From the NCBI GenBank assembly GCA_009746045.1, contig RPFO01001162.1, positions 251,001 through 315,000 on the forward strand: a stretch of DNA of 64,000 nucleotides. Direction: 5' to 3'. Both the position numbers and the translations under genes were made by a program. The DNA is from Mesostigma viride. Its lineage: Eukaryota > Streptophyta > Mesostigmatophyceae > Mesostigmatales > Mesostigmataceae. This document shows, in pieces, positions 28,726-56,000 of the stretch. Position 1 is the first letter of the stretch. Every line of letters starts with the position of its first letter. The notes under the pieces were generated by a model. The model did not search any database. It saw nothing but the letters and a program-made list of their open reading frames with translations, and had not been told where the DNA came from.

Positions 28726-28736
28726 TGGCGGAATTC

Positions 28737-29478: not shown

Positions 29479-29639
29479 CTGTTGCTTATCACCTTCTTGA
29501 TGATGAATCTTCAGCCTTCCCGCCTTCACCTTCCCGCCTTCACAAGTCACAATAAACGCGCTTTTAGCTTTAGTGCACTATACACTAGCTAGCTCATCAC
29601 GCAATTATTTGTTCCTACTACAGGTCGGCGCGCCGCAGT

Positions 29640-29830: not shown

Positions 29831-29874
29831 TGTGCTGCCACCCAGGAATCGGGGGCGCGTCGGCAAGCAGGATA

Positions 29875-30018
29875 TCAGGTTGCAGACGTCAAGCTCAGGA
29901 ACCCCGTGAGCGCCGTCAGCTTAATCACCGGGGCGGGGAGCTGGTCAGGTCCAACGGCGGCGTAGCAGCGGAGTTGCTTGGTGGCGGTGCTCAGCTCGAG
30001 CTCGGTGAACGGCGGTAG
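29875..30018 (-). pseudogene. C-terminal coding part of the gene split by TRIM copy 2
   Basis: Minus-strand frame of 48 codons ending in TGA at 29875 (PPFTELELSTATKQLRCY ... TALTGFLSLTSAT). Removing the TRIM and one GGTAG duplication joins it in frame with the segment beginning at 32024 (ALTEPLADPSEL). I do not recognise the protein. Confidence 0.55.
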
Positions 30019-34046: not shown

Positions 34047-37000
34047 CTACCAAGTCCTTTGCTGGGTAGCAAGCAACAAAGTGGCAGTAGCTGCTTGAAT
34101 CGCATGAGTGGTGAACCCCGCAGCAATGCATGCACACAGGCAAAACCAGGAACCCTCAGGTACCTGAGACAGAGGGGGTTGAAGGCAGTGAAGATGCCAG
34201 CCGCAGTTGCAGTGATCACACAGCAACATGACCTCAGGCTGGTCGACCCGGTGACAAATTTGACACTGCGCATCGCGGATGCGCCTAGCGGTGTGCGGCT
34301 GGATGCTCCGTGCCAGGTGGGGCATGGAGCAAGGAGACAGGTTCGACACATTGTCAGTGGTCTTACTACCATGCATCCGCACCTTCGAGGACGGCCACCC
34401 CCGAAGGCTTAATCTCCACAATGCGAAGGATGGTGGGCCCGGCCGTGACGTCCAGCGTGTGTTGGGGTTGAGTCCGCAGAAACACATACTGGCCGGGGTG
34501 GAACTGCAGCCGCCTGGCCATATACTTGCCACCCCGTTGCTGGGCGTACCGCAGTGTGTCGCGGTGCTGCGCGATCAACAGATTGTTCATCGCGATGGGC
34601 ATCACCTTCTTAAAAGTGGCGGCGCGCGCCACAACCTCCCGCAGCCACTCATTGGCGTCATCCCATTGAATCGGCTGGGGGTGAGCTTCCTGCACCTCAG
34701 AGGGCAACAATGGTGCCCGACCAAAGAGCAGAAAATAGGGGGGAGAACTGGGCGAGGGATTCTTGTGGGCTCATCCGGTAGCCCATGGCGATCCAGGGCC
34801 GGGAGTTCCCTATCCCAGGTGGCCACACGTGCTGCTTGCAACGCCCATTTGCGCAGCGCCTGTTTGACTGTCTGAACCAAACGCTCAGCCAGTCCATTGG
34901 CCTGAGGGTGCTCCCGCGACGTGTACCGATGATCGATGGAGCAGGAATCCAATAGCTCTTGGAATTCCCCACGAAATTCCCCGCCTTGGTCTGAAACCAC
35001 CTCCGCCGGTGCCCCATACCGAGCAATAACATCCAGGAAGTAGGTGGCTGTGGTGGCGGCGTGCTTGTCGGGTAGGGGAATCAGTTCCAGCCACTTGCTG
35101 AACGATTCCACACACACCATGACGTAACGGTTGCCGGAAGTGCTGAGCTCAAAGGGCCCACACAAGTCGACGTGCCACCGGTAGAACAAGCCCCGGATGG
35201 GCAAGGTCATGAGCTCCTTGTCATGATGGTCCAGGTTGAAACGCGCTTTCGCGCGAGCACACTCAGCACAACTGGCTACCTGCCGTGCTATGGCATGCTT
35301 CATGCCCGCCCACCAATAGACCCCACGCACCATGGCACCTGTGCGGTTTGCACCCATGTGCCCGAACCGCTCATGGTAATGTGCAACGAGGGCAGCACGC
35401 TTGTCAGGGGGCGGCACGACCAGCTTGCGGCGCCCCACAAGCTTGTAGACCTGGTTGCCCTCCCAGGTATAATTCACAGCCCGGCGCTCCACGCGCTCTT
35501 GCTCGGCTTGCCTCTGCGTCGGTGTCCAGTCAGCAGGGGCTGGAGAGGCAGGCAAACCCTGCACCCGCTCGAGAACCCTCCCATCCAGCCACACGTCCCC
35601 AGCGCAGCACTCCACCGCAATGGCGTGACTAGCGGCAGCATGCAGCACCACACAGCCCATGCTCGCCGGATCCACCGGCTGCGCAAGCGTGTCTTCAGCC
35701 AAAGGAAGAAATATCACGCCCTGGGATGGCGTGAAAGCCGCTGGCCGTACAGGATTGGCGTAGCACGCAAACTCCGCCACGGCATCACTGCAGGAAAGCC
35801 ATCGCGACTCGGAATCGCATGGCCCGGCTGCGTTGACAAAGACGACTGAGCCCTGTGGTCCCTCCGCGCCCTGCGCTCGCGCCCCCGTCCGGTCCTCTGA
35901 CGTTGCCAAAGCATAGCGTGATAAGACATCGGCATTGGAATGGTCCACCCCAGCGCGGTGTACAATGGTCATGTTATATTCTTGAATAATCATGGCCCAG
36001 CGCGCCAGCTTGCCTGTCAGATTAGCACTTGTCATCAACCACTGCAGTGGCTGATGGTCGGTGACCAGCGTGAACTGACGCCCGAACAAGTATGGCCGAA
36101 AATGTTTGATGGCCCACACCACGGCCAGAGCCTTGCCCTCATACGATGAGTACTTGGCCTCAGCCGTGTTGTTGCTCCTGCTGGCATACGCCACCACATG
36201 TTCCTTGCCATATATGCACGTCCTTCTAGTGCCAACACAGCACCAAGTCCAACCCTGGACCAATCCGTGTATAGCACAAATGGCTGGGCATAGTCGGGCT
36301 GACGGAGTATCGGCGCTGAGGTGAGCTCTGCCTTGATGGTCTCAATGGCGCGTTGCTGCGCCGGACCCCATGCCCAGACTGCACCTTTCTCCAACAGCTC
36401 CGTCAGTGGCTTAACCTTGGTGCTGAAGTTGGGGATATAACCTCGGTAATACCCCGCCAGCCCCAGGTAAGCCCGCACACCCGCCACATCCGTGGGCGTT
36501 GCCGCGTTGACGATCGCTTCCACCTTGGCCGCTTGTGGAGTTCTGCCGCCAGGAATGATCTGGTGTCCGAGGAAGTCGAGGCTCCGCTGCGCAAACCGAC
36601 ACTTCTCGGGATGCAGCTTTAGGTTGGCTCGCGCCAGTGCCATGCGCACCTGCTCAAGGTGCTGGAGGTGTTGCTCAAATGTCTCACTGAAGATGATCAC
36701 ATCATCAATGTAACACGCAGCGAATGGCATGCCATTCAACACTTGATCCATGGCACGCTGAAAGATGGCACTCGCATTCCTATGCCCGAAAGGCATCCTG
36801 ACCCACTCATAGAGTCGGTGGCCCCCCCAGAACGCGAGCTTGCGTTGGTCACCCTCCGCCACTTGGATTTGGTGAAACCCACTGCGGAGGTCTAGGGATG
36901 AGATGAACTGCACGCGTGGCGATATCCGGTCAAGCACATCGTCCACTCGCGGCATGGGGTACCTGTCCATCGGGGTGTGTGCGTTGAGTTGCCGCAGGTC

Positions 37001-37155
37001 CGTCGCCATGCGCATCCCAGTCCATTCACCTGTCACCGCATCCTTCTTGGGCGCCACGACGGTCGCGGCCGCATAGTTGGATGTGGATGACCGAATGATG
37101 CCAGCAGGCTGCCTCCAGCTCCTCGCATTGTTGATGCACAAACTCCAGCTCAACT
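34047..37155 (-). pseudogene. gypsy G1 RT, RNase H, integrase, PHD finger (frameshifted)
   Basis: RT is well preserved (YPMPRVDD, SSLDLRSGFHQ, YIDDVIIFS) in the frame 37153-36250; RNase H and integrase continue in a second frame 36263-34780 (YTDWS, then HVDLCGPF, SDQGGEF and GLAERLVQ catalytic residues); the C-terminal region and PHD finger (CQICH, MLLCDHCNCGWH) are in a third (34532-34047). Frameshifts lie near 36230, 34770 and 34400-34550. The RNase H acidic residue seen in G2 as YEGEA is YEGKA here, so activity is probably lost. Order and neighbours match G2, its closest relative in the window. Confidence 0.85.
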
Positions 37156-37159
37156 TGAC

Positions 37160-37670
37160 TCAGCCGGTGTTGTCGGCGAAACAGTGGCTGATCGGTGTCC
37201 AGCGGGACCCGCATCTGCCCACCATTGTAGCATCCCAGCTCTTGACTGCATATGCTGAATGCAAACGCGTTGCGCGCACCTTCCAGCCACTTGAGCAGCC
37301 TCGCGCGTTGCTCAGCTGTGAGGTGCTCACATGCAGACGCTCCATTGATGGTTTGCTGCCGGGTCGCTTGCGCTCGAGACAGCCACCGTGCATGTGCACA
37401 GCCACCGTGGGACCGCGCACGGCCGCCGACTGAAACAGCATGTATGCCGCCGCTCCCGGCGTAATGGCTCGCTCGATCTCCCACCTGCCGTTGTGCCTTC
37501 GCCACGAGGAACTGAAAGGCCGGAGCCGCCGAGAACACACAGCTGGTGAGGAGCGCAGTCATGAGGATGACTGACCATACCTGGCGCCAGGTGTAGGACC
37601 ACCCTTGGCCCCTGCCGCCTGCACGCTCCGCCTTAGGCACACCAGCCGGCGCAGCACCGGTGGGTGGAGA
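37160..37670 (-). pseudogene. gypsy G1 linker with hydrophobic segment, frameshifted
   Basis: Contains VWSVILMTALLTSCVF, the counterpart of a hydrophobic segment in G2 at 46340-46393, then the pre-RT stretch ending PLFRRQHRLSQVELEFV. A frame change lies near 37530 and another near 37100. Preservation of the hydrophobic block in both elements suggests that it mattered. Confidence 0.6.
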
Positions 37671-37674
37671 AGTG

Positions 37675-38950
37675 TCACTCTGCGCCTGTGCAGTCGCAGC
37701 ATGGACGGGGAGTGCAACCCGCTGCACCCTCCGCACACCTTGCACTGCTAGCAAGGTGTACCCCACCTGCCATGCAGGCTGACATGGCCTGGCCAATGAG
37801 CGACCATCGCTCCACCTCCAGGAGCCCTGGGGCGGCGGATGCACCTTCGGCAAAGCCCATGCTTAGTTCACGAAACCCCGCGGACCCGTGGCTGAACCAT
37901 GCAAGAGACCTGTGGCACGCTCCCACACAAGCCCCTTGCCCCGGTCACGATAAGCCTGGGACCCTTGGTAACTGACAAGGGTGGGCAGTGCTCGCATGGG
38001 GGCGCCTGCCTTGTTGACGGGCGCGTCGGGTGCCTGATCATCGTGCTCCACATACTGCGCCGTGAGTTGACTGGGCAACACGACATCAACCGGTGGCAGC
38101 TCAATGTGGCTAGCGACATGCTGCATCACCGCCTGCATGCGTAGAACCTTGGCCAGCGATGTTGGTCCAGAACGCGCGCAGCCGATAGGTATTCCCTCCC
38201 AGCCCGGCATTGTCCGACACCACGGGTTCCCCCAAAATACCCACAATGGTGCCCCAATCCTCCCGAACAGTGGGGCTGGGACTGTCCACCGCCACTACGT
38301 TTTCAAATAAGTAGGCGGGTGGCACCTGCTGCAGCTGCTGGAGCTCGCCCACAATGCGCACCATGTCCCAAAATAGGCCGCTCCTGCTGTCGGCAAGGCC
38401 CCGGCCATGCCCAGCCTGGCTCATGCCTTGGCACTCCCAGCCAGCAATGACCAACCCTACCTCGCCATGTTGTGAGATGAGGCGGCGCAGCTGCTGCTGC
38501 CCAAGGAAGCGCACGTCATGAGTGCCCTCGCCGAAGACATCAGCCCAGGCGGATGGAGGAAATTGTGCTGGGTATGCTTGCATGCGACAAGATAGCGCAG
38601 TGGTGCAAATATGCCGCCCTGGCTGTGAGCGATGCCTCCACCGCAATGAGCTTGCTGCATACCCCCCCGCTGCTCAGGAAACCGGCTATGCCGCCACCCA
38701 TACCTGCGAACAGCTCCAGCACGACGGTGGCACGCCCGAAGTCCGGGATGCGTTCCAGCACCTCTGCGCTAAAGCCGGGGTACGGCGTGATGGCACCCGG
38801 CTGGCGCCGCTTCCCCCCAGCACCCTTGGGCAGTGCCTGACATGCCGCCATCACCCGTGCGCGCACATCGCGCAGGCGTGGCAGGGGCGCAACCTGGGCA
38901 AGCCAACTTTGCCTCTGCGCATCCCGCGCTGGCAACGCCGCAGGCAGCAC
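37675..38950 (-). pseudogene. gypsy G1 C5-cytosine methyltransferase domain (broken)
   Basis: Methyltransferase motifs are recognisable in order but in several frames: motif I VVLELFAGMGGGIAGF (frame 38950-38540), motif IV VIAGWECQGMSQAG and motif VI AYLFENV (38646-38110), target-recognition region LPTLVSYQGSQAYRDRGKG (38246-37863) and motif X ERWSLIGQAMS (37926-37675). Frameshifts lie near 38640, 38150 and 37880. The sequence is the homologue of the open domain in G2. It is no longer expressible as one protein, yet its presence in an older, independent element shows that the domain was inherited by the family and not captured once by G2. Confidence 0.85.
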
Positions 38951-38959
38951 ACACCGGTG

Positions 38960-40104
38960 CCTATCGCGCGCGCGTGCTTGTCGCTAGCCGCTTGCGCCAT
39001 GTGCACCGCTTGCGTGTCCGGCCACACGCCCCCCCCCCAGTTCTCAGCCGCATCCCCTGGCTCCACCTCTATGCTGGCGGGCGACACCACTGCAGCCACA
39101 CACGCGTCTAGCGACACCACCCCCTGCGGGTTAGGCTCCGGGTCGCTGCTGCACTGAATGGGAAGAAGCGCCTTTTGCTTCCCCTCCCCCTGCCAATCAC
39201 GGCGGTAGGTCGCAACCTCCAGCCAAGGGTCAATTATGAGCCCGAGGCGATACATGACGTCCATCCCGATAAGGGCTGCATACCCACACCTGTCGACCAC
39301 CAAGGCCGGCACAGCCACGCAGGCCATCCGCTTTGGGTCCGTGGGGTTGAGGATGACGTTGATCAGCATGGAAGTCATTGCATCGGGTCGCGCCGCTGGC
39401 CCTTTCCATCCCTCCACGAGAACGGTGCTGTCTATGAGCCCGCCGTTCTCACGGGTCGCACCACACATCTTGGCCAGCTCCATGGTGATCACGAGCGGCC
39501 CGGCTCCGCCATCCAGCTTGGTGACGGACTTTGCGCTGGGGCACACCATAGGGCCCCAACAAGTGCCGTCCTCGCTTATTGCCTGGAAAGCAATAGCCGG
39601 GGACCCATCAGGGTGCTTTGCCACCGTGACTGTCCTCGGCACCCGTGACATCCGCTCCTCGCGGGTTGCTTCCCGGGGCATGGTTGGTGCTGGGACGTCT
39701 GCCGGGGTTGCCGGCATAACTGGCATGGTGACCCGCCGCGCAGTTTCCGCCACCGGCAATGTGCGTGCGTCTATAGGCTGTCGGCGCACCGCTGCAGTGC
39801 CGCAGCTGCTTGGTGCACCAACGTGATGCCCCGCTGCCCGCAGCCATCAATCACTTGCCTGGCAGAAAACAAGGGAGCATCAATCACTCCATCCACTGGC
39901 AAGAATGGTGGCAGCTTGCGCCGCTGCTCGGCGTCGGCGGGGTTCGGGTGCTCCAGCAGCGATGACTCACCGCCGGTTGAACCTGCCGGGAACGATGCAG
40001 GAAGCTGGGGTGGCCCCCCCTCACCATTTCCCGTGGTTGGTAGGAACGACGGCAATGCCCGTGCCTGGCTGCCTGCTTGCCTTGGGTAGCTGCCTGGACC
40101 TCGA
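38960..40104 (-). pseudogene. gypsy G1 protease region
   Basis: The frame from 39789 down to about 38990 carries an aspartic-protease-like segment, SVTKLDGGAGPLVIT (a DGG active site instead of DSG), ENGGLIDSTVLVEGWKGPA and YAALIGMDV, matching G2 piece by piece. The part above 39770 is in another frame (LFSARQVIDGCGQRG), so an indel separates them. At 40104 the reading is cut by G2; across the target duplication TCGA it continues in frame into the gag segment at 52185 (WAPIHAV joined to EVQAA). Confidence 0.75.
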
Positions 40105-41383
40105 TGTCGCGTCTGCGTGCCACAATCTCCGGCGCCACCATGGCGGCTGGCCACTCAGCTTAATTTGGTAAAACCCAAATGAGCTGAGCTGATGTGCCTG
40201 CCTTAACTGCATGCCCTGTGGGGTGGGCGAGGACCTGTCCCATGTTTAAAGAAAGGAGGGCTCTCAGCCGAGGACAAGGAACTGTCCCTCGTGCCTGATA
40301 ACCACCTTATTGCCTCCCCTGCTATAGAATAATGCTTTCAAAACACACACTTTGCACAGTCTGATGATGAAGCCGCACATGCGGAGTTTATTGAGAAAGT
40401 TAATACAATTACAACACGTTGATAGTCTCAATATCGATGCACTCCATGCTCACGAGCCCGCAGTTAGGCAGCGCTCCATGACATGCTACCGGCCTTGCTC
40501 CCAAGGAAAGGGAGAAACACGAAGGCCACTAACGAGAGACTCGAAGAGACTACACGCTGCGTGAGAGTCCTCTTCGACTATGAACCAAACCATTCGTCAT
40601 GCCACACGCATGACACACGCCACACTTGTCAGTCCAGCCAGGAATGCCAAAACTATCTTGCTGCCTGAACCATGCGAATAGAAACCGCATTCCAGTTGCC
40701 GTCCTGGCTTTCTACCACACATGCCAACAAAAGCAGGAAGGCATCCCGACAAATCTAAATTGCTACCCTGTTGCCGATCTCATCTCCTAGAGGCTCCGGC
40801 ATTTCTGTCCCTGGGAATGTCCGACATTGAGTCACGTCCAGCAAGGTCGAAGCATAATATCCTTCAGACAATCTGCACGCTCACACCTTGCGTGTGAGTG
40901 GCCCAGCAAACATTGCGTCTAATCGTTCCTTTCTAGAAGAAATCCCTTTGTAGGGCTGCCAGCGATTTCGCATTCATTCCAGCGATCTGGCTCCGCACCG
41001 CAAATTGTCCTTTTCCATTTTCTGTCCAGTCCTCATAACGTTGACCCGCTATTCTACACCACAAAGACACCTGGCCTGTCAATAGCCTCGGCGCTGTTGA
41101 AGTCCAGCAGTCCAGCTTCAGCTCCAGCTGTCCACTAACACGCGTATGATCCTCTCGACGCTGCACACTTGTGCTGCCGTCCGCTCAAGTCAGTGCTGCG
41201 CGCCCAGCTGTGCCTGGCCCGGCGCGCGTGCACGTACACTTTCGTCCGCTCTTATGCTGCAAGTGCTAGTGTCCCCCCCGGTCACTAGCCTTTGTCGAAA
41301 ATGCGTAGAAGACAAATTCCTTGCGCACGTCACCGGTCTTGTGCATAGTGGGCGCCCGGATGACATAGCGCGCGTCCGTGACA
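40105..41383 (-). repeat. 3' LTR of G2 (core 40247-41383 plus 140 bp end)
   Basis: The core matches the 5' LTR 51047-52184 almost perfectly (a handful of differences). It continues for 140 bases to the element end at 40105. That 140 bp extension is not present after the 5' LTR core, where the sequence diverges at 51046. Confidence 0.75.
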
Positions 41384-41385
41384 GC

Positions 41386-41525
41386 TGTCGCGTCTGCGTG
41401 CCACAATCTCCGGCGCCACCATGGCGGCTGGCCACTCAGCTTAATTTGGTAAAACCCAAATGAGCTGAGCTGATGTGCCTGCCTTAACTGCATGCCCTGT
41501 GGGGTGGGCGAGGACCTGTCCCATG
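41386..41525 (-). repeat. 140 bp repeat between G2 purine tract and 3' LTR
   Basis: Identical over 140 bases to 40105-40244. The two copies bracket the LTR core, giving core, internal region, repeat, core, repeat across the element. Confidence 0.9.
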
Positions 41526-41540
41526 ATTCCCCCCCTCGCT
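41526..41540 (-). promoter_or_regulatory. Polypurine tract of G2
   Basis: Minus-strand AGCGAGGGGGGGAAT just after the pol stop region, matching AGCGAGGGGGGGAGAAAAG at the same place in G1. Confidence 0.7.
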
Positions 41541-41554
41541 GGCGACCGGCCCCA

Positions 41555-44500
41555 TCACGAAGACAGCGATCGTACCAAGACAAGGGCAGCGGTGACCGCA
41601 GTCAAGCTGCGGGAGGTAAACTGCGCAGCGGTGCACACTGGACAAAACCAATCCCCCTCCGGAATGCTGGTGACCACGGGCTGCAAGCACTGCATGTGCC
41701 AACCACAGTTACACTGATCACACAATAACATGGACTCCGCCTGATCGACCCGGTGACAAACCTGACACTGGGCGTCCTTGACTCGGCGAGATGTGTGCGG
41801 TTGGAGGTCGTGGACCAAATTGGGCAGTGAGCAGGGACTGAGATTGCTGAGGTTGTCTGTCGTACGGCTCCCGTCGGCGCCCTCCAAAATTGCCACTCCC
41901 GATGGTTTGATAGCCACAATGCGCAAAATGGTGGGCCCCGCCTCCACATCCAAAGTGTGCTTCAGCTGAGTGCGCAGGAAAACATACTGCCCTGGCCTAA
42001 ACCGCAGCTGGCGAGCCATGTATGCGCCCCCCCGGCGCTGAGCGTAACGCAGGGAGTCCCTGTGCTGAGCAATGAACAAGTTGTTCATCGCGATGGGCAT
42101 GACCTTCTTAAAAGTCTCTGCCCTGGCCAGCACCTCAACCAAAAATTGCTGAGCGTTGTCGAAGGCCATGGGTTCGGGGTGCGCAACCTGTGCCTCCGTA
42201 GGCAAAAGAGGATTACGCCCGAACAGAAGGAAATACGGGGAGAAGGTAGCGAGAGACTCCTGGGGAGACATGCGATAACCCATGGCAATCCATGCCAACT
42301 CGCGATCCCACCTGGCCGACTCCGGCACCTGCAGGCTCCACTTGCGCAGCGCCTGCTTGACGGTCTGCACCAATCTCTCAGCCAAACCATTGGCCTGAGG
42401 ATGCTCCCGAGAAGTGCGACGGTGATCAATAAGACATCCATCCAGCAACTCCTGGAACTCACCCCTGAACTCACCACCCTGGTCCGTGACTACCTCCGCG
42501 GGAGCCCCAAACCTGGTGATGATGTCTGCAAAATGCTTCGCTGTGGTAGCGGCATGCTTGTCAGCAATGGGGATCAACTCAACCCATTTGCTAAAGCTCT
42601 CCACGCATACCATGACATAGAGGTTGCCGTCAGGGCTCTCCTGAAACGGCCCGCACAGATCGACGTGCCAGCGATAAAACAAGCCCTTGATGGGAAGCGA
42701 CATCAGCTCCTTGGCACCATGATCTGCGCTAAAGTTAGCCTTGGTTCGAGCACACGGGACACAGCTGGCCACTACCTGGGCCACTGTGTGTCGCATGTTA
42801 TTCCACCAATAGCTGGTCCGTACGAGGCTGAGCGTGCGATTGCCACCCAAGTGACCATACCGCTCGTGGTACGCCTGCACTATAGCAACGCGCTTGTCAG
42901 GCGGTGGGACGACCACCCTACGCTTGCCCAACAGCTTGTACAAAACCCCATCTTCCCAACCATAGGTTGCAGCCCTGTGCTGCACCCTGTTCAACTCCGT
43001 CGCCTTCTGAGCAGGAGTCCAATCGACTGGAGTAGGAGTCAAGACAGCACCCTGCACTTGCTCCAAAACTCGACCATCTAGCCAGATATCAGCGGTGTAG
43101 CAATCAGCAAGAGAGCTACGCGCTAAGAGAGCCTGCACAGCGATCAGCTGCTGCAGAGAAGGATCAATGTCAAAGGACAGAGACCTACCCTCTTCCATAG
43201 CGCACACAGCTTTGGATGGCGTGAATGGCGACGGCCGCACCGGGTCGTCGCTGATGCCGAAGTCCGCCACAGAGTACTCGACACTGCGCCACCACGCCTC
43301 CTCCTCATCGTCGGCCGCATACCCAGCAGCGTTCACAAAGACCACAGAACCCGACGAGCCCTCGGCACCCATGGCCCGGGCTCCAGTGTGGTCAACAGTG
43401 GTAGGCATGGCGTATCGGGATAGCACATCGGCGTTGACATGGTCCTTGCCGGCCCGATGCACAATGGTCATGTGGTACTCCTGGATAATCATGGCCCATC
43501 GGGCGAGCTTACCCGTCAGGTTGGTGTTGGTCATTAGCCACTGAAGCGGCTGGTGGTCTGTCACCAGAGTAAACACGCGCCCAACTAAATACGGGCGAAA
43601 GTGCTTGATGGCCCACACCACAGCCAGTGCCTCCCCCTCATAGGAAGAATACCGGCTCTCCGCTGGGTTGTTGCTGCGACTAGCATAAGCAATAACGTGC
43701 TCGCGCCCATCACCATCCTTTTGCGCCAAGACCGCACCCAGTCCTACCTTGGACCAGTCGGTATATAACACAAATGGCAAAGCATAGTCAGGGGCGCGCA
43801 GAATCGGGGCCGACGTGAGCTCCTGCTTGATTGTCTCGATGGCGCGTTGCTGTGCGGGACCCCACGCCCACACGCACCCCTTCTTGAGTAACTCGGTCAA
43901 GGGCTTCACCTTGCTGCTGAAGTTCTCAATGTAACCTCGGTAATAGCCAGCCAAACCCAAATACGCCCGCACCCCTGAGACATCCGTGGGTACGGCGGCC
44001 TGCACAATGGATTCGACCTTGGCGGCATCAGGCGTCCGGCCACCCGGCACAATCTGATGACCAAGGAATGAGAGGGTCCGCTGGGCGAACTTGCACTTCT
44101 CAGGGTGCAGCCGCATATTATGCTCCTCGAGAGCCAAGCGAACCTGCTCCAAGTGCGCCAGGTGCTCCTCAAATGTCGCGCTAAAGACGATTACATCATC
44201 AATGTAACAAGCGGCGAAAGGAAGACCTGCAAGCACTTTGTCCATAGCTCGTTGGAAAACAGCACTAGCGTTGCGGTGCCCAAAGGGCATGCGCACCCAC
44301 TCATACAAATTGCCGCCCCCCCAGAATGCAAGCTTCCGCTGATCCTCCGGCGCAACTGCGATCTGATGAAAGCCGCTACGCAGGTCCAGCGAGGACACAA
44401 ACTTCACATGAGGAGATATCTTATCCAGGACATCATCCACACGTGGCATGGGGTAACGGTCCACGGGTGTGTGTGCATTCAGCAACCGCAGATCGGTGGC

Positions 44501-44655
44501 CATGCGCATACCCGTCCATGCCCCGGTGATAGCGTCCTTCTTGGGCGCAACGACAACGGCAGCGGCATAGCTGGAGGAAGATAATTTGCCTGATGATACC
44601 GGCATCCTCTAACTCCTTGCATTGCTCGGCTACAAAATCCAACTCGGCCTGACTC
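41555..44655 (-). CDS. G2 Pol second half: RT, RNase H, integrase, PHD finger
   Basis: One open frame; numbering from the Met at 44605, although the frame extends to the hAT junction (ELDFVAEQCKELEDAGI lies upstream in a nearby frame). RT: YPMPRVDD 51-58, SSLDLRSGFHQ 71-81, YIDDVIVFS 134-142. RNase H: D283 (YTDWS), E325 (YEGEA), D350. Integrase: H580, H585, C615, C618, then D649 (HVDLCG), D708 (TDQGGEF), E743 (GLAERL). After a GPY-like region (GQYVFLRTQ) comes a PHD finger: C947, C950, C962, C965, H970, C973, C988, C991. Gypsy integrases often end in a chromodomain; a PHD finger in that place would be an alternative way to read histone H3 tails. All catalytic residues are intact. Confidence 0.9.
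41621..41773 (-). other. PHD finger domain of G2 integrase tail
   Basis: C4-H-C3 pattern CQVCH..., MLLCDQCNCGWHMQC..., WFCPVC. The aromatic W before the last Cys pair is typical of PHD fingers. G1 keeps the same domain. Confidence 0.9.
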
Positions 44656-45993
44656 TAGGTTGGCAAATACGGGTACGGGGTATAATACGCGGACCTAAAA
44701 TACGCGTATTATACGTGGGGGGTGTAAAATACGCGGCGGTAAAATACGCGACCGTTTTTGTGGTCCAATTGTCAGTCACCCAATTAGCACGCTCCTTGAT
44801 GATGGTCATGCAGTTATTGCAACTGAAATTTGGTGTATATGCTTATTTATTAACATCTTCCATTAATTTATGCCCTGCAATCCTATCTGATTATGATTTG
44901 TTAAATGCTGGGGGGAGCAGACTGCAACGGGAACTGTAAGGAATCAATTAATTAGTTAATTGTAAGGAAAGCCATCCACTATATAATGCATGAGAGGACA
45001 TAAGACACAACTAACTTCTTCACGAGCAGCTCGCCACCCAACAACTTCCGAGAAGGAGGGGTGACGTGCCCTCCTTTGTATTGGATCATGCCGGCCACCA
45101 TCTGCTTGAAAGAGGCGCTCTCAGCCGCATTGAAGGCAATGCCGTTCTCGATAAAAAATTCGGCAGCCAGCAGCTGGATACCTTGTTCGTCGACGGGAAC
45201 CAGCCATTTGGTGATGCTCAGCTGGCCTTGATGCTTGCTGGGAACCGACGACAAGTCAGCCGGCGCAGCCCCTCCCATCTCCGCCATTGCCCTGTTCAAA
45301 GTGTGCACCTTCTTGGCGTCTGACTTCTGCAACTTGTTGTTAGCAATCCTGAGAAACCTGTTCCGGATATTCGGTGGAATTTTGTCGCAGGGTAACACCC
45401 CTTCCCCTGCGATTCCGGCAAAGTGTGCACGGACTCGGAATACGCTTATTGGCCCCGCCTTGTAGGAGAAGTTCTTGTTGCAAAATGAGCAGAACATCCT
45501 CGACACATACTGCGTTGTGTTACTAACAGCATCCGTGACTGCTTCTTTCTTCTCGACAACGAAATCCCATTCAGGCCCTTTCTTCGGCATGGCTGCAAAT
45601 CGAAAATGGCTGCACACTATCGCACAGTCGCACTGGCCTCGTCCTCGCTATATTGCATTACACCGTCAGTAGCACAGCTGGCATTTGCTGTCATTATGCG
45701 TGATGTACCTAGTCCTAGCTGTCTCCTACCGGCCAAAGATTTTGCAAGGCTTGCGCTTTATGGAAAGAACTGTACGCATCTACTTCTAGTAGTAAAAATC
45801 TCAAATGTGCAGTGAACGCGACGCGCCCAGAACCTGGGCACCGCGCCAGTGCCCGCTGCCCGCTGGTACCCCCGAAAAATTCTAAGTCCAAACCGCGTAT
45901 TCTGAAGTAAAGTACGCGTACATACGGCGGAGGCCTTCAGTGTACGTTTTCCCGTACTTCTGCGGCTCCGTACGGCGTACTGACCAACCCGGG
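44656..45993 (-). mobile_element. hAT DNA transposon, internally deleted
   Basis: Flanked by CCTGACTC (44648-44655 and 45994-46001; the direct repeat extends to ten bases). Ends TAGGTTGGCAAATACGGG and, inverted, GGGTTGGTCAGTACG form imperfect terminal inverted repeats. AATACGC-type words cluster near both ends. It encodes only the N-terminal part of a transposase. Removing it and one duplication restores the G2 frame (RLSQ joined to AELDFV), as in G1 (RLSQVELEFV). Confidence 0.85.
44979..45590 (-). CDS. hAT transposase N-terminal fragment with BED zinc finger
   Basis: 204 codons from the Met at 45590 (MPKKGPEWDFV); an upstream in-frame Met at 45617 is also possible. Residues near 33-75 form a BED-type finger: FCSFCNKNFS, then FRVRAHFAG and GVLPCDKIP, the plant hAT spacing C-x2-C, H, C. 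A later block, FFIENGIAFNAAESASFKQM, matches the conserved stretch in hAT transposases before the catalytic core. The RNase H-like catalytic domain and C-terminal dimerisation domain are missing, so the fragment cannot transpose the element but could bind its ends and act as a repressor. Confidence 0.8.
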   Translation of the reverse strand: MPKKGPEWDFVVEKKEAVTDAVSNTTQYVSRMFCSFCNKNFSYKAGPISVFRVRAHFAGIAGEGVLPCDKIPPNIRNRFLRIANNKLQKSDAKKVHTLNRAMAEMGGAAPADLSSVPSKHQGQLSITKWLVPVDEQGIQLLAAEFFIENGIAFNAAESASFKQMVAGMIQYKGGHVTPPSRKLLGGELLVKKLVVSYVLSCII

Positions 45994-48900
45994 CCTGACT
46001 CAGGCGATGCTGGCGTCGGAACAAAGGAGTGTCAGTGTCCAATGGAACACGCATGGTCCCACCATTGAAACACCCCAGTTCATCACTTGTGAAAGCGAAG
46101 GCCCCCCTTGCAGTGCCTAGCCACTTTAGCATGGCTGAGCGCTGCGCATCAGAAAGGTGTTCGCCAATAGCCCAGGGGTGCGTATCCGCGGGATCACCCA
46201 CAGCTACCGCATGTGCCTCAAGATGCGGCGCCCTAGCCGCATCGTCGTGGAACAAGGAAAAGGCTGCCACGCCTGGTGTGACACCCACCGCCGGAGCCTC
46301 GCGTGCCGCACGGTGTATTACCCGATGCAGCGTGGGCTCGCCGGCCAGCACGGTGCTGGTCAGCAGGGCGGTCATGAGAATGATAGTCCACACCTGTCGC
46401 AGACGCCACCCCCATGCTGATGAAGTCCCCGTCGCTGCAGGGCGCTTCAGTTTGGCTGCGCGCGCCTCAACCTGCTGAGGCGGATTGGCTGGGGACGCCC
46501 CCCCAGACTGGCGCACGGCAACCGATGCAAGCAGCACATACCCGACCTGCAACACCGACATAGCCTGGCCTATCAAAGACCAGCGCTCACTCTCGAGCAC
46601 GCCCGGCAGCGCCGAGGCCCCGACATGAAAACCCATGCTGGCCTCACGAAATTCTGCGGGTGGCTGCACCAACAGACCGGTGGTAGTGTCCCAAACGAGA
46701 CCCTTACCCCGATCACGGTATGCTGTCGACCCTTGGTAACTGACCAGGGTCGGCAGTGCACACATGGGGCTCCCGACCCGGTTGACGCGTGCATACGGTG
46801 GGCGATCCTCGCTATCCACCTTCTGCGTGACTAGGTGGGAAGGCAATGCTACCTCCGCAGACACACTCGGATGCTGCCTTGCTACGGCCCCCAAGACCGC
46901 CTGCACATCGGTCGCACACGCCACGTTGGTCCAATAGGCACGCAAACGATGCGTGAGCCCACCCAGCCCTGCGTTGTCACACACGATGGGCTCCCCCAGG
47001 AGTGCCACGATTGTAGCCCAGTCCTCCCGCACCGCCTGATGTGGGCTGTCACCCGCCACAACGTTCTCAAACAGATACGCAGGCGGATGGGGCTGACGCG
47101 ACTGCAACAGTCCCACCACACGCAACAGTTCCCAGAACAGCGCGCTACGCGGATCGGCTAGCCCCCGCCCTTGCCCTGCCTGGCTCAGGCCCTGGCACTC
47201 CCAACCCGCAATTACCAAGTCGATGGCATGATGCCTGCGCAACAACTGCTGCACCTGCACCTCACCGATGGCTCGGATATCTTGAGGACATTCCCCAAAC
47301 GGGTCACGCCATGCTGATGGCGGAAACTGCGCGGGATACTCTCGCGACAACACGCCACAGTGACTGAAGTACACCTGACGCGCCTTGTGCGATGGCTCTA
47401 CCGCGATGAGTTTACGGCACACGCCGCCTGCGGCCAAAAAGCCTGCAATGCCCCCTCCGATCCCCGCAAACAGTTCCAACACTACCGCACCCTTGGCAAA
47501 ATCAGGGGCCTGCGGTAAGATTGCAGCAGAAAAATTACCTTGGGCCTCCGAGACACCCGGTTGCAGCAAAGTGAGGCCATGGCTGGCCATCTGAGGAATG
47601 GTGATGACGGCTTCAGTTACCCGCTTGCGCATAGCCAGCTGCCGCGTGGACGTCACAGCATCCAGCGACCACTGCGTGCGCATCTTGGCAATGCTCGCCG
47701 TTGGCTGGGGCAGCACCGTCCGATGCTTGTCCCACGCCGATGAGCCCGCCGCCCGTACCTCCACCATGCTGACCTCCACCACGCCCGCAGCCGCGGAAGG
47801 GTTGAGGCGTGCAGCCCCGGCTGAAGAACTGAAGCATGAGACCGGCACGCTGGCCCGCTTCAGGCCAGCCCCATCCCAATCAGGGATGTAAGATGCCTCC
47901 TCCGCCCTATAGTCCACCTGAACCATGGCGCGAGCAAGGACATCCACCCCGAGTAGTGCGGAATATCCACACTTGTTGACCACCAGCGCATACGCGGACA
48001 CGGTGGTCATGCTAGAGGCGCGCAACGGATTGAAAATCACGTTGACTTTAACCGCCGTCATAGCGTACGGCTTACTAGCCGGACCCTGCCAACCTGACAC
48101 AGACACGGGGCTTTCCACTAAGCCACCGTTCTCGTAGGTCAGGTTCAGCATGGTGGCCAAGTCCGTGCTGATGACTAGCGGCTGAGCACCGCTATCAAGC
48201 TTGACTGCGCCAACCAACGGACATGTCACCATGTCGCTCCATACATCTCCACAGGCTCCAACTGCTTGGAACGCCATGGACGGCTCACCATTGGGGTATG
48301 GAACCACCGTGGGAACCTGGGGGACTGCACTAGTGCGCTGCTGGCTACTTGTGCTGACCACTCCCGCTTGCACCACGGGCACTGCGGCTTCTACCGGCTG
48401 GCGCCCGTAGGTGACGGACTCAGAATTGCGCAAGGTGCGCACATCATGCCCATCTGCGAACAACTGGATCTCGGACACAACCGACCCCAGCCACTCAACC
48501 CCCTTCTGCCCGAAGGTGTCGACCACCTGCCGTGCTGAAAACATGGGTACGTCCACAATGAACGGCATTGGGTACACAGGCGCCAATCGCCTACGCTGCT
48601 CCAGCCCAGCAGGGTTCGCATGCTCAAAAGCAGATTGCACCCCAGCCAGCGGCATGGAAAAGGACGCGGGCAACTGCCCGGCAGGCAACATGGGTGCCTG
48701 CTGAAAAGAAAGCGGGCTGCGTGCCTGCTTGCCTTTGGTAGCCTCCGCAGCGTTGATCTCGACGTCACCCGGCATGGGCGCCCAGAATGGGTCCTCCCGG
48801 TACACCGTCTCGAATTGGTTGGGGGGCGCCGTCGCCTCCTCACCATGCTTGATGGCAGCCACCTGGGCTTCCATCGAGTCGGTCTTGCCCGCCATCTCGG

Positions 48901-49087
48901 CGAAGTGGACCGTCTTGATGCCCGCGGCTGGACACTTGTTCATCAGGTGCCACTTCGTGTCTGCCCCATGCGGCTTCGTGCAGCGGCTTGGACACTCGCG
49001 ACTAAGGTGCCCATCCTTGTCGCAAAGGAAGCAGCCCGATTTGCGCGCATCCGTCCTAGTACCCGTCTGTGAGGACGTGCCCCCCCA
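45994..49087 (-). CDS. G2 polyprotein first half: zinc knuckle, protease, C5-methyltransferase, hydrophobic segment
   Basis: Numbering from the Met at 48943; the same frame is open upstream through a zinc knuckle (CFLCDKDGHLSREC, 49033-48990) to the G7 run at 49080. Protease-like domain: D250-S-G in VKLDSGAQPLVIS, YSALLGVDVLA 327-337. Methyltransferase 482-805: motif I LELFAGIGGG, motif IV AGWECQGLSQAG with C583, motif VI FENV 626-629, HRLRAYWTN 665-673, LPTLVSYQGS and motif X WSLIGQAMSV. Next a hydrophobic segment WTIILMTALLTSTVLAG (852-868) and the pre-RT stretch PLFRRQHRLSQ, where the hAT element cuts in. The 78 codons beyond belong to that insertion. Confidence 0.9.
46340..46393 (-). other. 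Hydrophobic, possibly membrane-spanning segment in G2 polyprotein
   Basis: Eighteen mostly hydrophobic residues preceded by WRLRQ and followed by a small-residue stretch, like a signal anchor. G1 has VWSVILMTALLTSCVF at the same place. Confidence 0.5.
46529..47500 (-). other. C5-cytosine DNA methyltransferase domain of G2
   Basis: About 324 residues, close to the size of a minimal methyltransferase. Motif order I, IV, VI, VIII, target recognition, X is the normal (non-permuted) one, so it is not a DRM-type permuted enzyme. The catalytic loop reads WEC in place of the usual PPC or SPC, a variant that I associate with some phage and giant-virus-like enzymes. No stop, no missing catalytic residue. 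Expected role: methylate cytosines in DNA, perhaps the element's own copy. Confidence 0.88.
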
Positions 49088-50778
49088 GCTCGCGTCGGGG
49101 CGGCAGCGTCTTTGTTGCCGCCAGCGGCGTTACCCTGGGTTGCATCATGCGATGAGGCGTTGCGAGACCCCCCTTGGTTCCTGCTAGCACCGTGGCCGCC
49201 TTGCGGGCGCGCTTGTCTTGTGGCAGACGACTCACCCGACTTGGCCTTGGTCAGCGCGTCGACCTTGGCCTGCAGCTCGGCCACCACCGTGCTTACCGAG
49301 ATCCGGCCTTGCGCGTGTCGTCGCATCATGGCCCTGACCTCAATGCACAGTGACCGCAATCGCCACGGCTGGCCGTTGGGCGGCGTGGGCAGCTCCATCT
49401 CCTTGGAGCCTAGCGCTTGCAGCCATTTCTGACACGCCAGCTTTTCGGACCAGTCCTCCACTTCGCCGGCGAACTCCATGAGGCGCTCGTAAGATTGCTC
49501 CGGGGTTTCACCCTCGGCTATCTTGAAACTGCGCCACTCACGCTCTGCCTTGATGGTCTCCACCGGGTATTCCTGGCGAAGGAGGCCCCACAGTTCCTCG
49601 GCAGGGTCGACACCATACATGATGTTGTCATAGTCGGGCTGGCCACGCCCGTCGAAGCCGAACCACACGTCCGTGTGACGCGTGTACAGCGAGACCTCTC
49701 TCCACTGCTCCACCAGCCTAGCCACTCGCCTCAGCGTAAGGCCGTGAAAGAAAAAATGCATGTTGTTCATCACAAACTCATGCATTACAGCGCCTTGCGT
49801 AGTCATGTATTGCAGATCAATCCATGACTTGTACGCGTTGTAGGCCTGCGCCAGCGTGGCCAGATTGCCGGTTGTGGAGAACTTCTCGCGCATGTCCACC
49901 CGTGGTAGGGTGGGCATCTTCGCGCCTTCCGGTATGAGGCGCACCCTTTGCGGGTACTGCACCCCATCGGCATCCTCCGGCGGTCGCTGAGCTGCGCGTC
50001 CCTGCGCCAGCGTGCTTGGTCGTGCTGCCTCCCGTACTCGGAAAGCCAGCGGCGTGGTTATGTCCTCCATGGGCGGAATGCGCCCGATTGGCACACTTGA
50101 CCACCGTGCAGTCGACCCGCCGGTCAGCGCCCCACCGCCTCGCCCAAACGGAATTGAGGCCCCGCCTGGCAGCATGCGTCCTGGTGCACCCCTGTGTGGG
50201 TCCATCGCGCGCGCCAGCCCTGCCCCGTTCTCCTCGTGCAATCCGTCTCGCGCTTGATCGAAAGGCAGGCGCCTGGGCGCCAGCGTATACTCGCCCCGTG
50301 GCTGACCATCCGCCTCACCAAGCAAGTCGTGTTGGGTTAGCGACCCAGCCAAAACCCCCGGTTCCATCGAAGCCCTTCCCGCCGCATTACCTGAGGTTGG
50401 CGGCTGGTCCCGCTCCCTCGGCTCCGCGGCAACACCACTGGGGCCCGGCATCGATGCCTGCCCGTCCCATGGTGTGGACTGCAGATGACGACCCTCTACG
50501 GCCACCAATCTGTCGGTCACTTCCCGCATCTGCAGCGCCAATTGCTGCTGCAACTGTTGCGACTGTTGCTGCATCTGCGCTTGCATCTGCGCGAACAGCG
50601 CCACCATACTCAGCGGCGCTTCTTGGTCGCGACTCTCACCCACTGCGGGTACGGCGGGAGGAATCCCGCCATTCGACCCCGGAGCGGACGTGTCGGCATC
50701 TGCTCTATTTGCATCTGCCATGGCTCGAGTCTGCGCTCGCGTCAGTGGCATGCACCAGCTGACCGATGGGCAAAACAA
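49080..50778 (-). CDS. G2 Gag
   Basis: Starts with ATG at 50778; a second Met (50721, MADANRADADTS) is also possible. An acidic disordered N-terminus, then a Gln-rich coiled coil (MQAQMQQQSQQLQQQL near residue 68-85), a long Pro/Gly-rich linker, and a capsid-like core (RVDMREKFSTTGNLATL, YKSWIDLQYM, GVDPAEELWGLLRQEYP, EDWSEKLACQKWLQALG). A basic Ser/Ala/Gly tail reaches the G7 run at 49080-49086, after which the zinc knuckle lies in the -1 frame. The gag frame itself continues 40-odd codons to a stop at 48943. G1 has the same core with conserved DVDPAEELWELL. Confidence 0.85.
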
Positions 50779-51046
50779 GAACCAACAAGCCTAGGTTTCG
50801 CTGAGAAGAAGCAACAACCAAAGGCTTTATAACAGGTGTCAAGGATAACGACTCGACTAGCCTGCCAGAAAAAGACAAGAGCCAGCAAATTCTGGCTAGT
50901 TCTATTTTCTTAAAATCTGTCTCAAGACACTTCCTTTACAAACTGTCAGCCAGGCCGTTCCCTGTACTGCTGATGGTTGCTAAACACTAAAGCCAACGTC
51001 TTGGCTTCGAACAGAAGGAAGCAGACTACCGGGTAGTCTCTTCGAG
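50779..51046 (-). other. G2 leader between 5' LTR and gag
   Basis: 268 bases without ORF. Includes CTTTATAACAGG (plus) near 50824, and a purine/pyrimidine mix. No convincing primer-binding site follows the LTR core at 51046. Confidence 0.5.
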
Positions 51047-52184
51047 TAAAGAAAGGAGGGCTCTCAGCCGAGGACAAGGAACTGTCCCTCGTGCCTGATA
51101 ACCACCTTATTGCCTCCCCTGCTATAGAATAATGCTTTCAAAACACACACTTTGCACAGTCTGATGATGAAGCCGCACATGCGGAGTTTATTGAGAAAGT
51201 TAATACAATTACAACACGTTGATAGTCTCAATATCGATGCACTCCATGCTCACGAGCCCGCAGTTAGGCAGCGCTCCATGACATGCTACCGGCCTTGCTC
51301 CCAAGGAAAGGGAGAAACACGAAGGCCACTAACGAGAGACTCGAAGAGACTACACGCTGCGTGAGAGTCCTCTTCGACTATGAACCAAACCATTCGTCAT
51401 GCCACACGCATGACACACGCCACACTTGTCAGTCCAGCCAGGAATGCCAAAACTATCTTGCTGCCTGAACCATGCGAATAGAAACCGCATTCCAGTTGCC
51501 GTCCTGGCTTTCTACCACACATGCCAACAAAAGCAGGAAGGCATCCCGACAAATCTAAATTGCTACCCTGTTGCCGATCTCATCTCCTAGAGGCTCCGGC
51601 ATTTCTGTCCCTGGGAATGTCCGACATTGAGTCACGTCCAGCAAGGTCGAAGCATAATATCCTTCAGACAATCTGCACGCTCACACCTTGCGTGTGAGTG
51701 GCCCAGCAAACATTGCGTCTAATCGTTCCTTTCTAGAAGAAATCCCTTTTTAGGGCTGCCAGCGATTTCGCATTCATTCCAGCGATCTGGCTCCGCACCG
51801 CAAATTGTCCTTTTCCATTTTCTGTCCAGTCCTCATAACGTTGACCCGCTATTCTACACCACAAAGACACCTGGCCTGTCAATAGCCTCGGCGCTGTTGA
51901 AGTCCAGCAGTCCAGCTTCAGCTCCAGCTGTCCACTAACACGCGTATGATCCTCTCGACGCTGCACACTTGTGCTGCCGTCCGCTCAAGTCAGTGCTGCG
52001 CGCCCAGCTGTGCCTGGCCCGGCGCGCGTGCACGTACACTTTCGTCCGCTCTTATGCTGCAAGTGCTAGTGTCCCCCCCCGGTCACTAGCCTTTGTCGAA
52101 AATGCGTAGAAAACAAACTCCTTGCGCACGTCACCGGTCTTGTGCATAGTGGGCGCCCGGATGACATAGCTCGCGTCCGTGACA
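51047..52184 (-). repeat. 5' LTR of G2 (core)
   Basis: 1138 bp matching 40247-41383 with few differences. Begins (minus) TGTCACGGACGCG beside the TCGA duplication. Lacks the 140 bp end present on the 3' LTR. Confidence 0.9.
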
Positions 52185-54449: not shown

Positions 54450-56000
54450 AGGGCAAGGAGAAAGAAAACAATTGCCTGAAAGCTGAAAACCAATGCTGCT
54501 TCAGGACCTGCTTGCAAGCTGCCTGCCTTGACAGCCTTGCACAGCCAGCTTTACCTCTATTCCTAGGATTCAGGAAGAGGCCTCAGCCTTGACCAAGCTT
54601 ACCTACCAACTCTCAGTTAGCTCTGTGTATAAGACGAGAAGCCAGTGCCAACTGCACTTCTCAAAAAGGTGAGACCTGAGAGTGAGGTATGACTAGGTTG
54701 GGCTTCACACTGGGTTCTTTGTTGCAAATGAAATGAACGTTTTTATTACCAATACTCTACCTAACTTGGCAGCTCTGTTTCAGCAATAGCTGGGCTCGAT
54801 GAAGGAAAGGAGGGCTGGCCACACTTGCCACGCACCACCATGACCAAGACAGAGTTCAAAGATCGATCCACACAGAGCTACATCCAACGCCCTGGTGGAA
54901 ACACACACTTATCCCAATGAATGCCTCACACTTACGCAATATCTTGCGTCAGCCTTACCTCGTAGCCACGCTCAGTATCTGATCCTGACGACAACCGCTT
55001 TGTCGTCCATACTGCTTCAATTACACCAAAGCTACTCCGTGGCACTCGGCTTTGGTCAGCACCAAGACCTAAAAGTACACAAAATCCTAAGTCGTTGTCT
55101 GCAACGACTCCCTGTTCCGCATATGAAACATATCATCTAACACTTTCTCTTTAGACGACAAAATCAACTAGACAACCTGGGTAGGCCAGAAATCCCAGAC
55201 GACAAAATGCCCTTGTCACAGAGCACTCCAGTGTCGACTTGCCGACCCCTGAGCTTGCCAAACAACTATATCACCAACCAAGCATGTACGACAACTACTA
55301 GCTGGCCCTGACGAGAAAAGCTGCCTCGTCGCATTCACAAAAGCGGCTTGCCAGCCTGCCGAATATCAATGCCAATATTGCATGACATTATCTACCTGCA
55401 GCGGACAGTTCTCGAGATCAATAACGCGCCAGCTTGCGTGCACGTGCATGTTCAGCCTGCACGATCCGCATAATTGCGAGGCTGGTAGCCTAGCTTGGTC
55501 CGTGTTGTAGTCCAGCAGCCAGTGCGTGCTGCTTGCCAGCGTTGGCACTGACCTCCTGGTGACGCATGTCAGTACCGCTGTCAACTCCCAGTGCTACGCG
55601 TCGCGCTACGGCGCATGCGTTGCTCCCGTAAGGCCCAAATGCCAAAGGCGTAACAACTCGCACACGCGCAATGCCTAGCTGCCTCGCCTCGTCCCCCGGG
55701 CCGGCCGCGTGGCGGCCCCGCGTAAAGCCAATACTCGTGCGAATCGGAACGGCGCGCGACACCCTTATCACCCGTAGTGACCTGTCGCATAGCTATTGCC
55801 TGCACCAAGATGAAATTAAGTGCGTGCTTAGCTTACCGACTTCCACGCATAGCATCGCTATCAAACGAACTGCTTCACAGCAATTCCTGCATTGCGTCCT
55901 TTGGCAATCATACCCCGAGCCTGGCTAGGGTCTGTTACGACACGAACATTCACAACACAAAAGAGTACCGGCAGTGCCCTTGGCCCGATATGGTATCTTG
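54450..56000 (-). other. Leader and probable 5' LTR region of G1
   Basis: From about 54795 (GGAAAGGAGGGCT, matching the inner edge of the G2 LTR) the sequence has weak, scattered similarity to gypsy LTRs, such as GTAGTCCAGCAG near 55507. It is too diverged from the 3' LTR at 32.8-34.0 kb to fix boundaries. No gene seen. Confidence 0.35.

Follow-up and report, generated by a model that had tools for sequence, protein, structure and literature searches.

A Ty3/gypsy retrotransposon of the streptophyte alga Mesostigma viride with a DNMT3-class methyltransferase domain in Pol and split terminal repeats: a possible case of self-priming, circular integration and self-methylation

Within a stretch of 64,000 nucleotides of the streptophyte alga Mesostigma viride (assembly GCA_009746045.1, contig RPFO01001162.1, positions 251,001 to 315,000; hereafter the window, whose own numbering is used throughout), the Ty3/gypsy retrotransposon G2 occupies 40105-52184 on the minus strand, in the order A1-gag-pol-B1-A2-B2, where A and B are two different repeats. 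Judging from its sequence, the Pol of G2 contains a conserved, probably competent C5-cytosine DNA methyltransferase (MTase) domain of the DNMT3 class, and the G2 family, with its many near-identical copies, appears to be recently active. The whole model put forward here, i.e., a Ty3/gypsy element, active until recently and with a DNMT3-class MTase as part of its Pol, which would prime its own reverse transcription, pass through a circular intermediate and methylate its own DNA, is held with a confidence slightly better than even. The kind of element is already known through KnitGypsy-Dnmt3 of Klebsormidium nitens; what is added here are the 4-bp target duplications, a palindromic junction shared with a distant relative, a 14-nt candidate self-priming site and a chlorophyte branch with a second position of the MTase in Pol. 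The element and its coding parts, namely the open reading frames (ORFs) and the domains they encode, including the reverse transcriptase (RT), are as follows.

40105..52184, minus strand: whole G2, outer ends TGTC...GACA, with the 4-bp duplication TCGA at 52185-52188 and 40101-40104
48943..50790, minus strand: gag ORF, 615 aa from stop to stop, without Pfam match
45758-49129, minus strand: pol ORF of 1123 aa with zinc knuckle, protease-like motifs and MTase (ORF list, Pfam and motifs)
48992-49033, minus strand: zinc knuckle, read in the pol frame and not in gag, Pfam score just under the cut-off
47936..48199, minus strand: retropepsin-like protease, by motif only (LDSGAQ 48182-48199, ALLGVDVL 47936-47959)
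46529..47500, minus strand: MTase domain, C5-cytosine, DNMT3 class, 324 aa (Pfam, motifs, fold and tree)
44653..45998, minus strand: insertion of 1346 bp splitting pol between MTase and RT, with the 10-nt flanking repeat GAGTCAGGCC, lacking from copies L018 and L011
41555..44608, minus strand: ORF for RT, RNase H, H2C2/rve integrase and PHD finger (Pfam)
41633..41767, minus strand: PHD finger at the integrase C-terminus (Pfam), nearest solved PHDs BAZ2B and Lid

By its order RT-RNase H-integrase, its RT, nearest to that of Ty3 among solved structures (E 4e-57), and its DDE integrase, where 35 residues separate the second D from the E, G2 is a Ty3/gypsy element. Respective to DIRS membership, a Pfam search of four G2 ORFs, one of them inside the inserted piece, returned no tyrosine recombinase (PF00589) and rve instead. 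No protease was called by Pfam in the ORF 45758-49129, where this domain is recognised from the LDSGAQ and ALLGVDVL motifs. The window copy is no longer whole, its pol being interrupted by the 1346-bp insertion. An 890-aa protein listed as jgi/Mesvir1 agrees with the searched region at 100% (rounded) along 83% of its length.

A previous reading of the window, made from the sequence only, had described an apparently intact C5-MTase between protease and RT of a Ty3/gypsy element, with motifs I, IV, VI, VIII and X in one frame at 46529-47500; this observation is confirmed and its interpretation partly supported. The domain is a single uninterrupted open stretch of 324 aa, the ORF containing it is matched by Pfam DNA_methylase PF00145 (E 2.7e-11, 43.9 bits, cut-off 22), and all five motifs, numbered according to what we take to be the usual scheme, were located in the usual order.

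47450-47476, minus strand: motif I, ELFAGIGGG
47183-47209, minus strand: motif IV, AGWECQGLS, with the catalytic Cys
47060-47071, minus strand: motif VI, FENV
46925-46954, minus strand: motif VIII, THRLRAYWTN
46556-46576, minus strand: motif X, LIGQAMS

Profile and catalytic motifs together place the domain in the C5-MTase family, PF00145 being matched by 12 of the 14 alignment members at E up to 0.1; with the NCBIfam model dcm, the score (45.7 bits) lies under the curated cut-off of 100.65, so this is a divergent member. By profile, fold and tree, it is nearer to DNMT3 than to DNMT1, DNMT2 or HhaI, and it is not circularly permuted as is plant DRM, whose profile matches sit at shifted positions. 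As such, the proposal that the enzyme originated apart from host DNMT1 or CMT stands, though not for the reason first advanced, namely the WEC loop of motif IV. Among 114 near-full-length MTases of retroelements (8 further domains out of 122 were dropped), WECQ occurs in 71 and WPCQ in 18, and DNMT3A has SPC; the loop being common in the retroelement clade, it does not identify the donor. In the tree, which answers the phylogenetic placement suggested at the time, DNMT3A (one fragmentary row on a long branch), a phage group with a YWTN motif and the retroelement MTases form one clade without settled internal order. A phage, giant-virus or bacterial donor was considered and dropped, the tree fixing neither donor nor direction. 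The phage group, found among IMG/VR relatives, has a DNMT3-like YWTN motif and falls inside the DNMT3/retroelement clade; stand-alone bacterial-type relatives match no better than 1e-13 and mostly cover about 41% of the domain, and the four sampled in the tree fall outside it. On the viral contigs L046, L048, L051, L058, L060 and L063, motif VIII of the phage enzymes reads, e.g., QNRKRFYWTN and motif X mostly GNGWT; being more DNMT3-like than classic bacterial enzymes, the phage YWTN MTases may, from their sequences, hint at where DNMT3 came from.

It could be argued that the domain is kept for work on nucleic acids other than DNA methylation, i.e., as an RNA methylase, a chaperone or a structural part. 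Motif IV is altered in most members, and RNA methylation was proposed for the DNMT of another retroelement, SymbioLINE (PMC5890265). Conversely, none of the 114 retroelement MTases departs from the others at the catalytic Cys, Glu, Asn, second Arg or Trp, the DNMT3-like fold spans the entire chain and DNMT2, an enzyme of the RNA type, gets a far weaker profile match (1e-3), which makes such a role improbable.

Searching the M. viride assembly (439.9 Mb, 2243 contigs) with the MTase domain, 123 copies were scored out of 514 candidates, the window's own included; of these, 99 form a top-scoring group and 24 score somewhat less. Each of the 123 covers residues 1-324 with zero stops in the domain, and 39 carry an open frame of 2074 aa. 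In the first 30 of the top-scoring group, which were fetched, the domain (972 nt) is identical to that of the window in every case; as these all come from the top group, selection inside the G2 family cannot be judged from them. A further, recurrent frame class, of 1042 aa (e.g., in copy L011), splits from the other copies between MTase and RT, at a run of C in which L011 is one base shorter, breaking the long frame, either as a real variant or by assembly error.

Selection can be judged against family B, comprising G1, the decayed relative into which G2 inserted, and the loci L039-L043. In L039 and L042 the MTase domain is open, with 65-66% protein identity to G2 over all 324 residues; in L040, L041, L043 and G1 it is truncated or frame-broken. 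Over 324 ungapped codons, G2 and L039 differ with a nonsynonymous divergence (dN) of 0.27 and a proportion of synonymous differences (pS) of 0.74, giving a dN/dS of about 0.08, against about 0.10 for L042, values that are rough and safe in direction only, since synonymous sites are saturated. Between G2 and family B, the RT region shows dN 0.15 and pS 0.77, with no finite dS, and the gag/protease region a dN/dS of about 0.30. From these codon comparisons, the MTase domain appears to be under purifying selection between the two families, in line with the check that had been proposed for it. The interrupted window copy and the decayed G1 could suggest that the MTase is a passenger or an artefact, i.e., a decaying or contaminant gene functionless in the element; this is already contradicted by the 123 stop-free domains, the 39 frames of 2074 aa, the purifying selection and the fact that no fewer than 119 other pol proteins carry related MTases, and deserves hardly any credence.

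The family B copies further bear a trace of methylation. Comparing five of them with L039, transitions affect 18 of 1796 CpG positions and 12 of 5622 other C/G positions (Fisher p 3e-5; p 3e-4 without L043, the most divergent), a sign, read from aged copies, of CpG methylation by some enzyme. In the M. viride genome, 5-methylcytosine is present with CG as the most abundant context, and LTR (long terminal repeat) retroelements make up the largest portion of the repeats, 27.9% (PMC6947507).

Beyond Mesostigma, a search with the metagenomic relative P0002, in which 8000 candidates were scored so that the count is a lower bound, yielded at least 122 pol proteins with an MTase (120 among the matches listed), with at least 119 pol proteins carrying related MTases beyond the three of the first search; among the matches are proteins of Haematococcus lacustris and Monoraphidium neglectum. 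Of the 122 proteins examined, namely the three of the first search and 119 new ones, 120 have RT, RNase H or integrase beside the MTase, and in all 120 the MTase comes after RNase H and/or before integrase; by the same domain test, P0001 and P0003 are MTase-only, like the window ORF. Having been gathered with P0002, the set leans to the layout of P0002. A second layout is that of G2 and of a distant relative, L158, a contig of 9285 bp with a 127-bp terminal overlap, binned into a cyanobacterial metagenome-assembled genome and taken as a eukaryotic contaminant therein: both have the order protease-MTase-RT-RNase H-integrase-PHD (the protease match of L158 being just under the Pfam cut-off), with 43.8% identity between their MTases. 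The RT and MTase trees agree in separating G2, family B and L158 from 20 sampled elements of the RNase H-MTase-integrase branch, with supports of 96/88 and 99/97 for RT and of 92/86 and 88/84 for MTase. P0003 joins the former weakly (82/52), yet branches under all other retroelement MTases in a broader tree. These sequences are best accounted for by one MTase capture and a later change of place within Pol, though two captures from one source may also account for them. In EukProt, the 159-aa protein P0127, labelled Prorocentrum lima, agrees at 98% with the Mesostigma MTase along one quarter of the query, and its presence in a dinoflagellate set may be contamination or recent transfer.

These layouts bear on where the enzyme would act. 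The MTase might work at the target site, brought to chromatin by integrase and PHD finger and methylating the adjoining host DNA, thereby steering integration or setting the chromatin state of the new copy. PHD fingers of BAZ2 and KDM5/Lid, which that of G2 resembles, read the unmodified H3 tail. The MTase moreover precedes integrase in 110 of 110 proteins of the RNase H-MTase-integrase branch with both, at a median gap of about 200 aa to the integrase core, and most of these proteins have a PHD finger by precomputed Pfam annotation. In Mesostigma and L158, however, the MTase precedes RT, far from the integrase, and action at the target site is considered quite unlikely. Methylation by the MTase of G2's own DNA is a plausible role; made as part of Pol, the enzyme is probably packaged with RT and integrase.

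The nearest known system is KnitGypsy-Dnmt3, where the Pol ORF of a Gypsy element includes a Dnmt3-class MTase and the repeats are DIRS-like (de Mendoza et al., 2018; PMC5890265). Like it, G2 comes from a streptophyte alga and has an MTase of the Dnmt3 class within a Gypsy Pol, with catalytic residues conserved, purifying selection on the MTase (with synonymous sites saturated here) and A-coding-B-A-B repeats, so that, compared by description and not by sequence, G2 agrees with KnitGypsy-Dnmt3 in each testable feature that the accessible text of PMC5890265 gives; among the matches listed in the protein searches, none bears the name K. nitens. In that text there is no mention of target duplications, palindromic junction, self-priming, PHD finger or chlorophyte relatives, and copies are said to be fewer in K. 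nitens than in Symbiodinium, compared with the at least 123 scored for G2. The SymbioDIRS-Dnmt3 elements, whose MTases were shown to perform de novo CG methylation in yeast, likewise have a Dnmt3-class MTase in Pol and A-coding-B-A-B repeats, but a tyrosine recombinase where G2 has a DDE integrase (Pfam rve); methylation of own cDNA or of insertion sites, also put forward in the previous reading, is a published hypothesis for MTase-bearing retroelements, and some DIRS elements carry Dam-like adenine MTases (PMC5890265). In a 2025 survey of eukaryotic DNMTs, as far as accessible, retrotransposon DNMT3s (LTR Copia, DIRS) are given as reported from streptophytes and dinoflagellates, beside SymbioLINE orphans (PMC12344493). 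In contrast to DNMT3A and DNMT3B, the G2 ORF is without ADD and PWWP domains, has WEC instead of SPC and is part of a polyprotein. A search of the open-licence literature turned up no chlorophyte Gypsy with a DNMT, no retroelement DNMT from Mesostigma, and no split-repeat element with a DDE integrase except in the accessible part of PMC5890265; nor did the second Pol position of the chlorophyte branch, target duplications of the G2 type, the shared palindrome or the self-priming site appear in it.

The evidence for the proposed life cycle lies in the repeats and the sites next to them.

51047..52184, minus strand: repeat A1, 1138 bp, starting with TGTC, 99.56% identical to A2 and also found in copy C592
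51340..51353, minus strand: candidate self-primer GTAGTCTCTTCGAG in A1 (also at 40540-40553 in A2), complementary to CTCGAAGAGACTAC
51033..51046, minus strand: candidate primer-binding site (PBS) CTCGAAGAGACTAC, directly after A1, perfect complement of a 14-mer inside A
41527..41539, minus strand: polypurine tract GCGAGGGGGGGAA, recognised visually, immediately next to B1
41386..41528, minus strand: repeat B1, 143 bp, ending with GACA, 99.3% identical to B2
41380..41389, no strand assigned: palindrome GACAGCTGTC at the junction of B1 and A2, proposed internal integrase attachment site, sole match in the window with 0.04 expected
40247..41383, minus strand: repeat A2, 1138 bp, from self-comparison
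40105..40247, minus strand: repeat B2, 143 bp, outer 3' end of G2, at the same place in 7 of 30 loci

An ordinary LTR pair is ruled out for G2, the 5' end consisting of A only and the 3' end of B-A-B, i.e., A1-coding-B1-GC-A2-B2; in copy C592, the order A-coding-B-A is followed by the contig end. A 4-bp target duplication is present in nine of nine copies with both ends readable, always at outer ends TGTC and GACA and in each case with A at the start and B at the end: TCGA in the window, CATA, ACAT, CAAT (a tandem composite), GCCT and GGAG elsewhere, and CAGT, AGGA and AGCT around solo A-B copies. The A end was located in 16 of 30 loci, where it is followed by coding sequence in 8, by B in 7 and by neither in 1, and a genome-wide count of the A start gives 434 occurrences (0 for the reversed control). 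Layouts of this type, with split direct repeats, are known from DIRS/PAT elements, for which a circular DNA intermediate has been proposed; from these, G2 differs by its integrase class and its affinity to the Ty3 RT.

Where B1 meets A2, the abutted ends form, with two nucleotides between (GACA-GC-TGTC), the perfect palindrome GACAGCTGTC. The exact 14-mer GACAGCTGTCACGG of this junction recurs in L158, 111 nt beyond the point where the G run of L158 begins; 43 stretches with the 14-mer of the palindrome in viral contigs were taken as chance matches. As for priming, the 14 nt after A1 are complementary to a 14-mer at offset 831 of A, a length reached by 0 of 500 shuffles. Among Ty3/gypsy elements, self-priming is predicted or described for Tf1/Sushi and Tcn1 (PMC6317226); the 14-nt candidate self-complement next to A1 would liken G2 to Tf1/Sushi, while a PHD finger and an MTase stand in G2 against the chromodomain of Tf1/Sushi/Tcn1. 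A polypurine tract followed by B after 0-14 nt was found at 252 places in the genome; among those listed, a single place contains an insert, while in the others the two abut except for G-run length or point changes. With the polypurine tract directly before B1, ordinary reverse transcription should give an LTR of the form B+A and a cDNA starting with B. Despite this expectation, A stands first and B last in the nine duplication-flanked copies. Cutting at the B-A junction of a two-LTR circle or concatemer would yield the layout observed.

Alternatively, A-coding-B-A-B could derive from templated read-through RNA or recombination between copies, without any circle, the palindrome being a by-product of abutting TG...CA ends. 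The joint of A2 and B2, TTTA followed by ATCATGGG, is indeed identical in 72 of 77 places, with four others one nucleotide off, and unequal crossing-over between A repeats would also produce tandems. Against such an origin speak a polypurine tract preceding B1 in elements whose nine duplication-flanked copies run from A to B, and a 14-mer junction common to L158. In addition, the fifth deviant joint, in the solo copy with duplication AGCT, holds 8 nt of the PBS, as from an end-joined cDNA, though internal deletion and recombination could also yield them. Altogether, this origin is possible but rather unlikely. Tandem forms with a B-GC-A junction followed by coding sequence were observed on contigs C111 and C133 of the M. 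viride assembly (L142, L148), a form that a dimer, or else recombination between A repeats, would be expected to leave.

In the self-priming and circular model, (i) the RNA would start in A, fold onto the site after A1 and prime itself, (ii) ordinary reverse transcription would give a linear cDNA with LTR B+A, (iii) the cDNA ends would be joined into a circle or concatemer, (iv) the DDE integrase would cut GACA-GC-TGTC inside one LTR, and (v) it would insert A1-coding-B1-A2-B2 into a target with a 4-bp stagger, the PHD finger aiding on chromatin. Before or at integration, the MTase would methylate the free double-stranded DNA of G2, presumably at CpG by analogy with DNMT3, and DNA so methylated would then be treated as host-like. 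A bolder version, tentative and on present evidence unlikely, sees here a class of DDE-integrase retroelements inserting circular DNA, where the LTR B-GC-A carries a ready junction at which integrase opens the two-LTR circle, and where the element's own DNMT3-class MTase marks the free circle, which would be spared by the host or not targeted by its own integrase. If true, MTase capture would go with circular double-stranded intermediates (DIRS, SymbioDIRS, KnitGypsy and the G2 clade), and one captured MTase would have persisted in streptophyte and chlorophyte algae alike, changing its place within Pol.

Several points weigh against the self-priming, circular and self-methylating model. In respect of the repeats, the A end was not located in 14 of 30 loci (two of these 14 were used only for the left flank), and for four of the five deviant A2-B2 joints, each a single nucleotide off, plain mutation is explanation enough. 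The self-priming complement was not found in L158, where the longest reaches 10 nt (11 nt being reached by 9 of 200 shuffles). Regarding the enzyme, a Pro precedes the catalytic Cys in only 21 of 114 retroelement MTases, a residue which, to our knowledge, is near-universal in C5-MTases; the selection estimate suffers from the saturation given above, and CpG decay does not reveal which enzyme methylated. Finally, when the MTase of KnitGypsy-Dnmt3, the nearest known system, was assayed in yeast, no methylation resulted, an outcome its authors call inconclusive (PMC5890265).

In the surroundings, G2 is nested in the older, decayed G1, with the duplicated TCGA on both sides of the nested insertion.

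34047..40104, minus strand: G1, 3' part, decayed and broken by G2 (ORFs; gag at about 52189-54500; 4-bp duplication at the nested insertion)
37753-38740, minus strand: MTase relics of G1, a decayed relative of the G2 MTase (sequence comparison)

The insertion 44653-45998 within G2 has short inverted ends and an ORF (44979-45647) for a 222-aa protein with a Cys/His-rich start and zero Pfam match; by these features it looks like a cut-down hAT-like transposon. From the window, 29 of the 30 fetched copies diverge at its left edge or 36 nt before (in L011, the divergence point before the insertion is the one-base deletion), and L024 diverges earlier. Further long repeats of 97-99% identity at 15395-32030, including the pairs 15395-17815 with 23107-25521 and 17816-18459 with 31382-32024 (inverted), point to more nested young elements. 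Elsewhere in the genome, a different stand-alone C5-MTase of 364 or 387 aa with an FPCQ motif occurs in at least ten equal-score copies (L001-L008 on contigs C1468, C35, C47, C64 and others); in L002, PF00145 covers the whole enzyme and the neighbouring ORF is without Pfam match. These copies possibly belong to a virus endogenous in the alga or to some other mobile element.

With G2 and its relatives, what was a report from one species, Klebsormidium, becomes an apparent clade, spread over green algae, of Ty3/gypsy elements with an MTase. The occurrence of the enzyme at two different places in Pol across this clade argues for an old and useful capture over an oddity. As the Mesostigma copies look recent, the genome has CG methylation and bisulfite data exist, the question of why a transposon would methylate itself becomes testable, and the repeat anatomy of G2 offers a concrete and falsifiable model of integration for an integrase element with split repeats.
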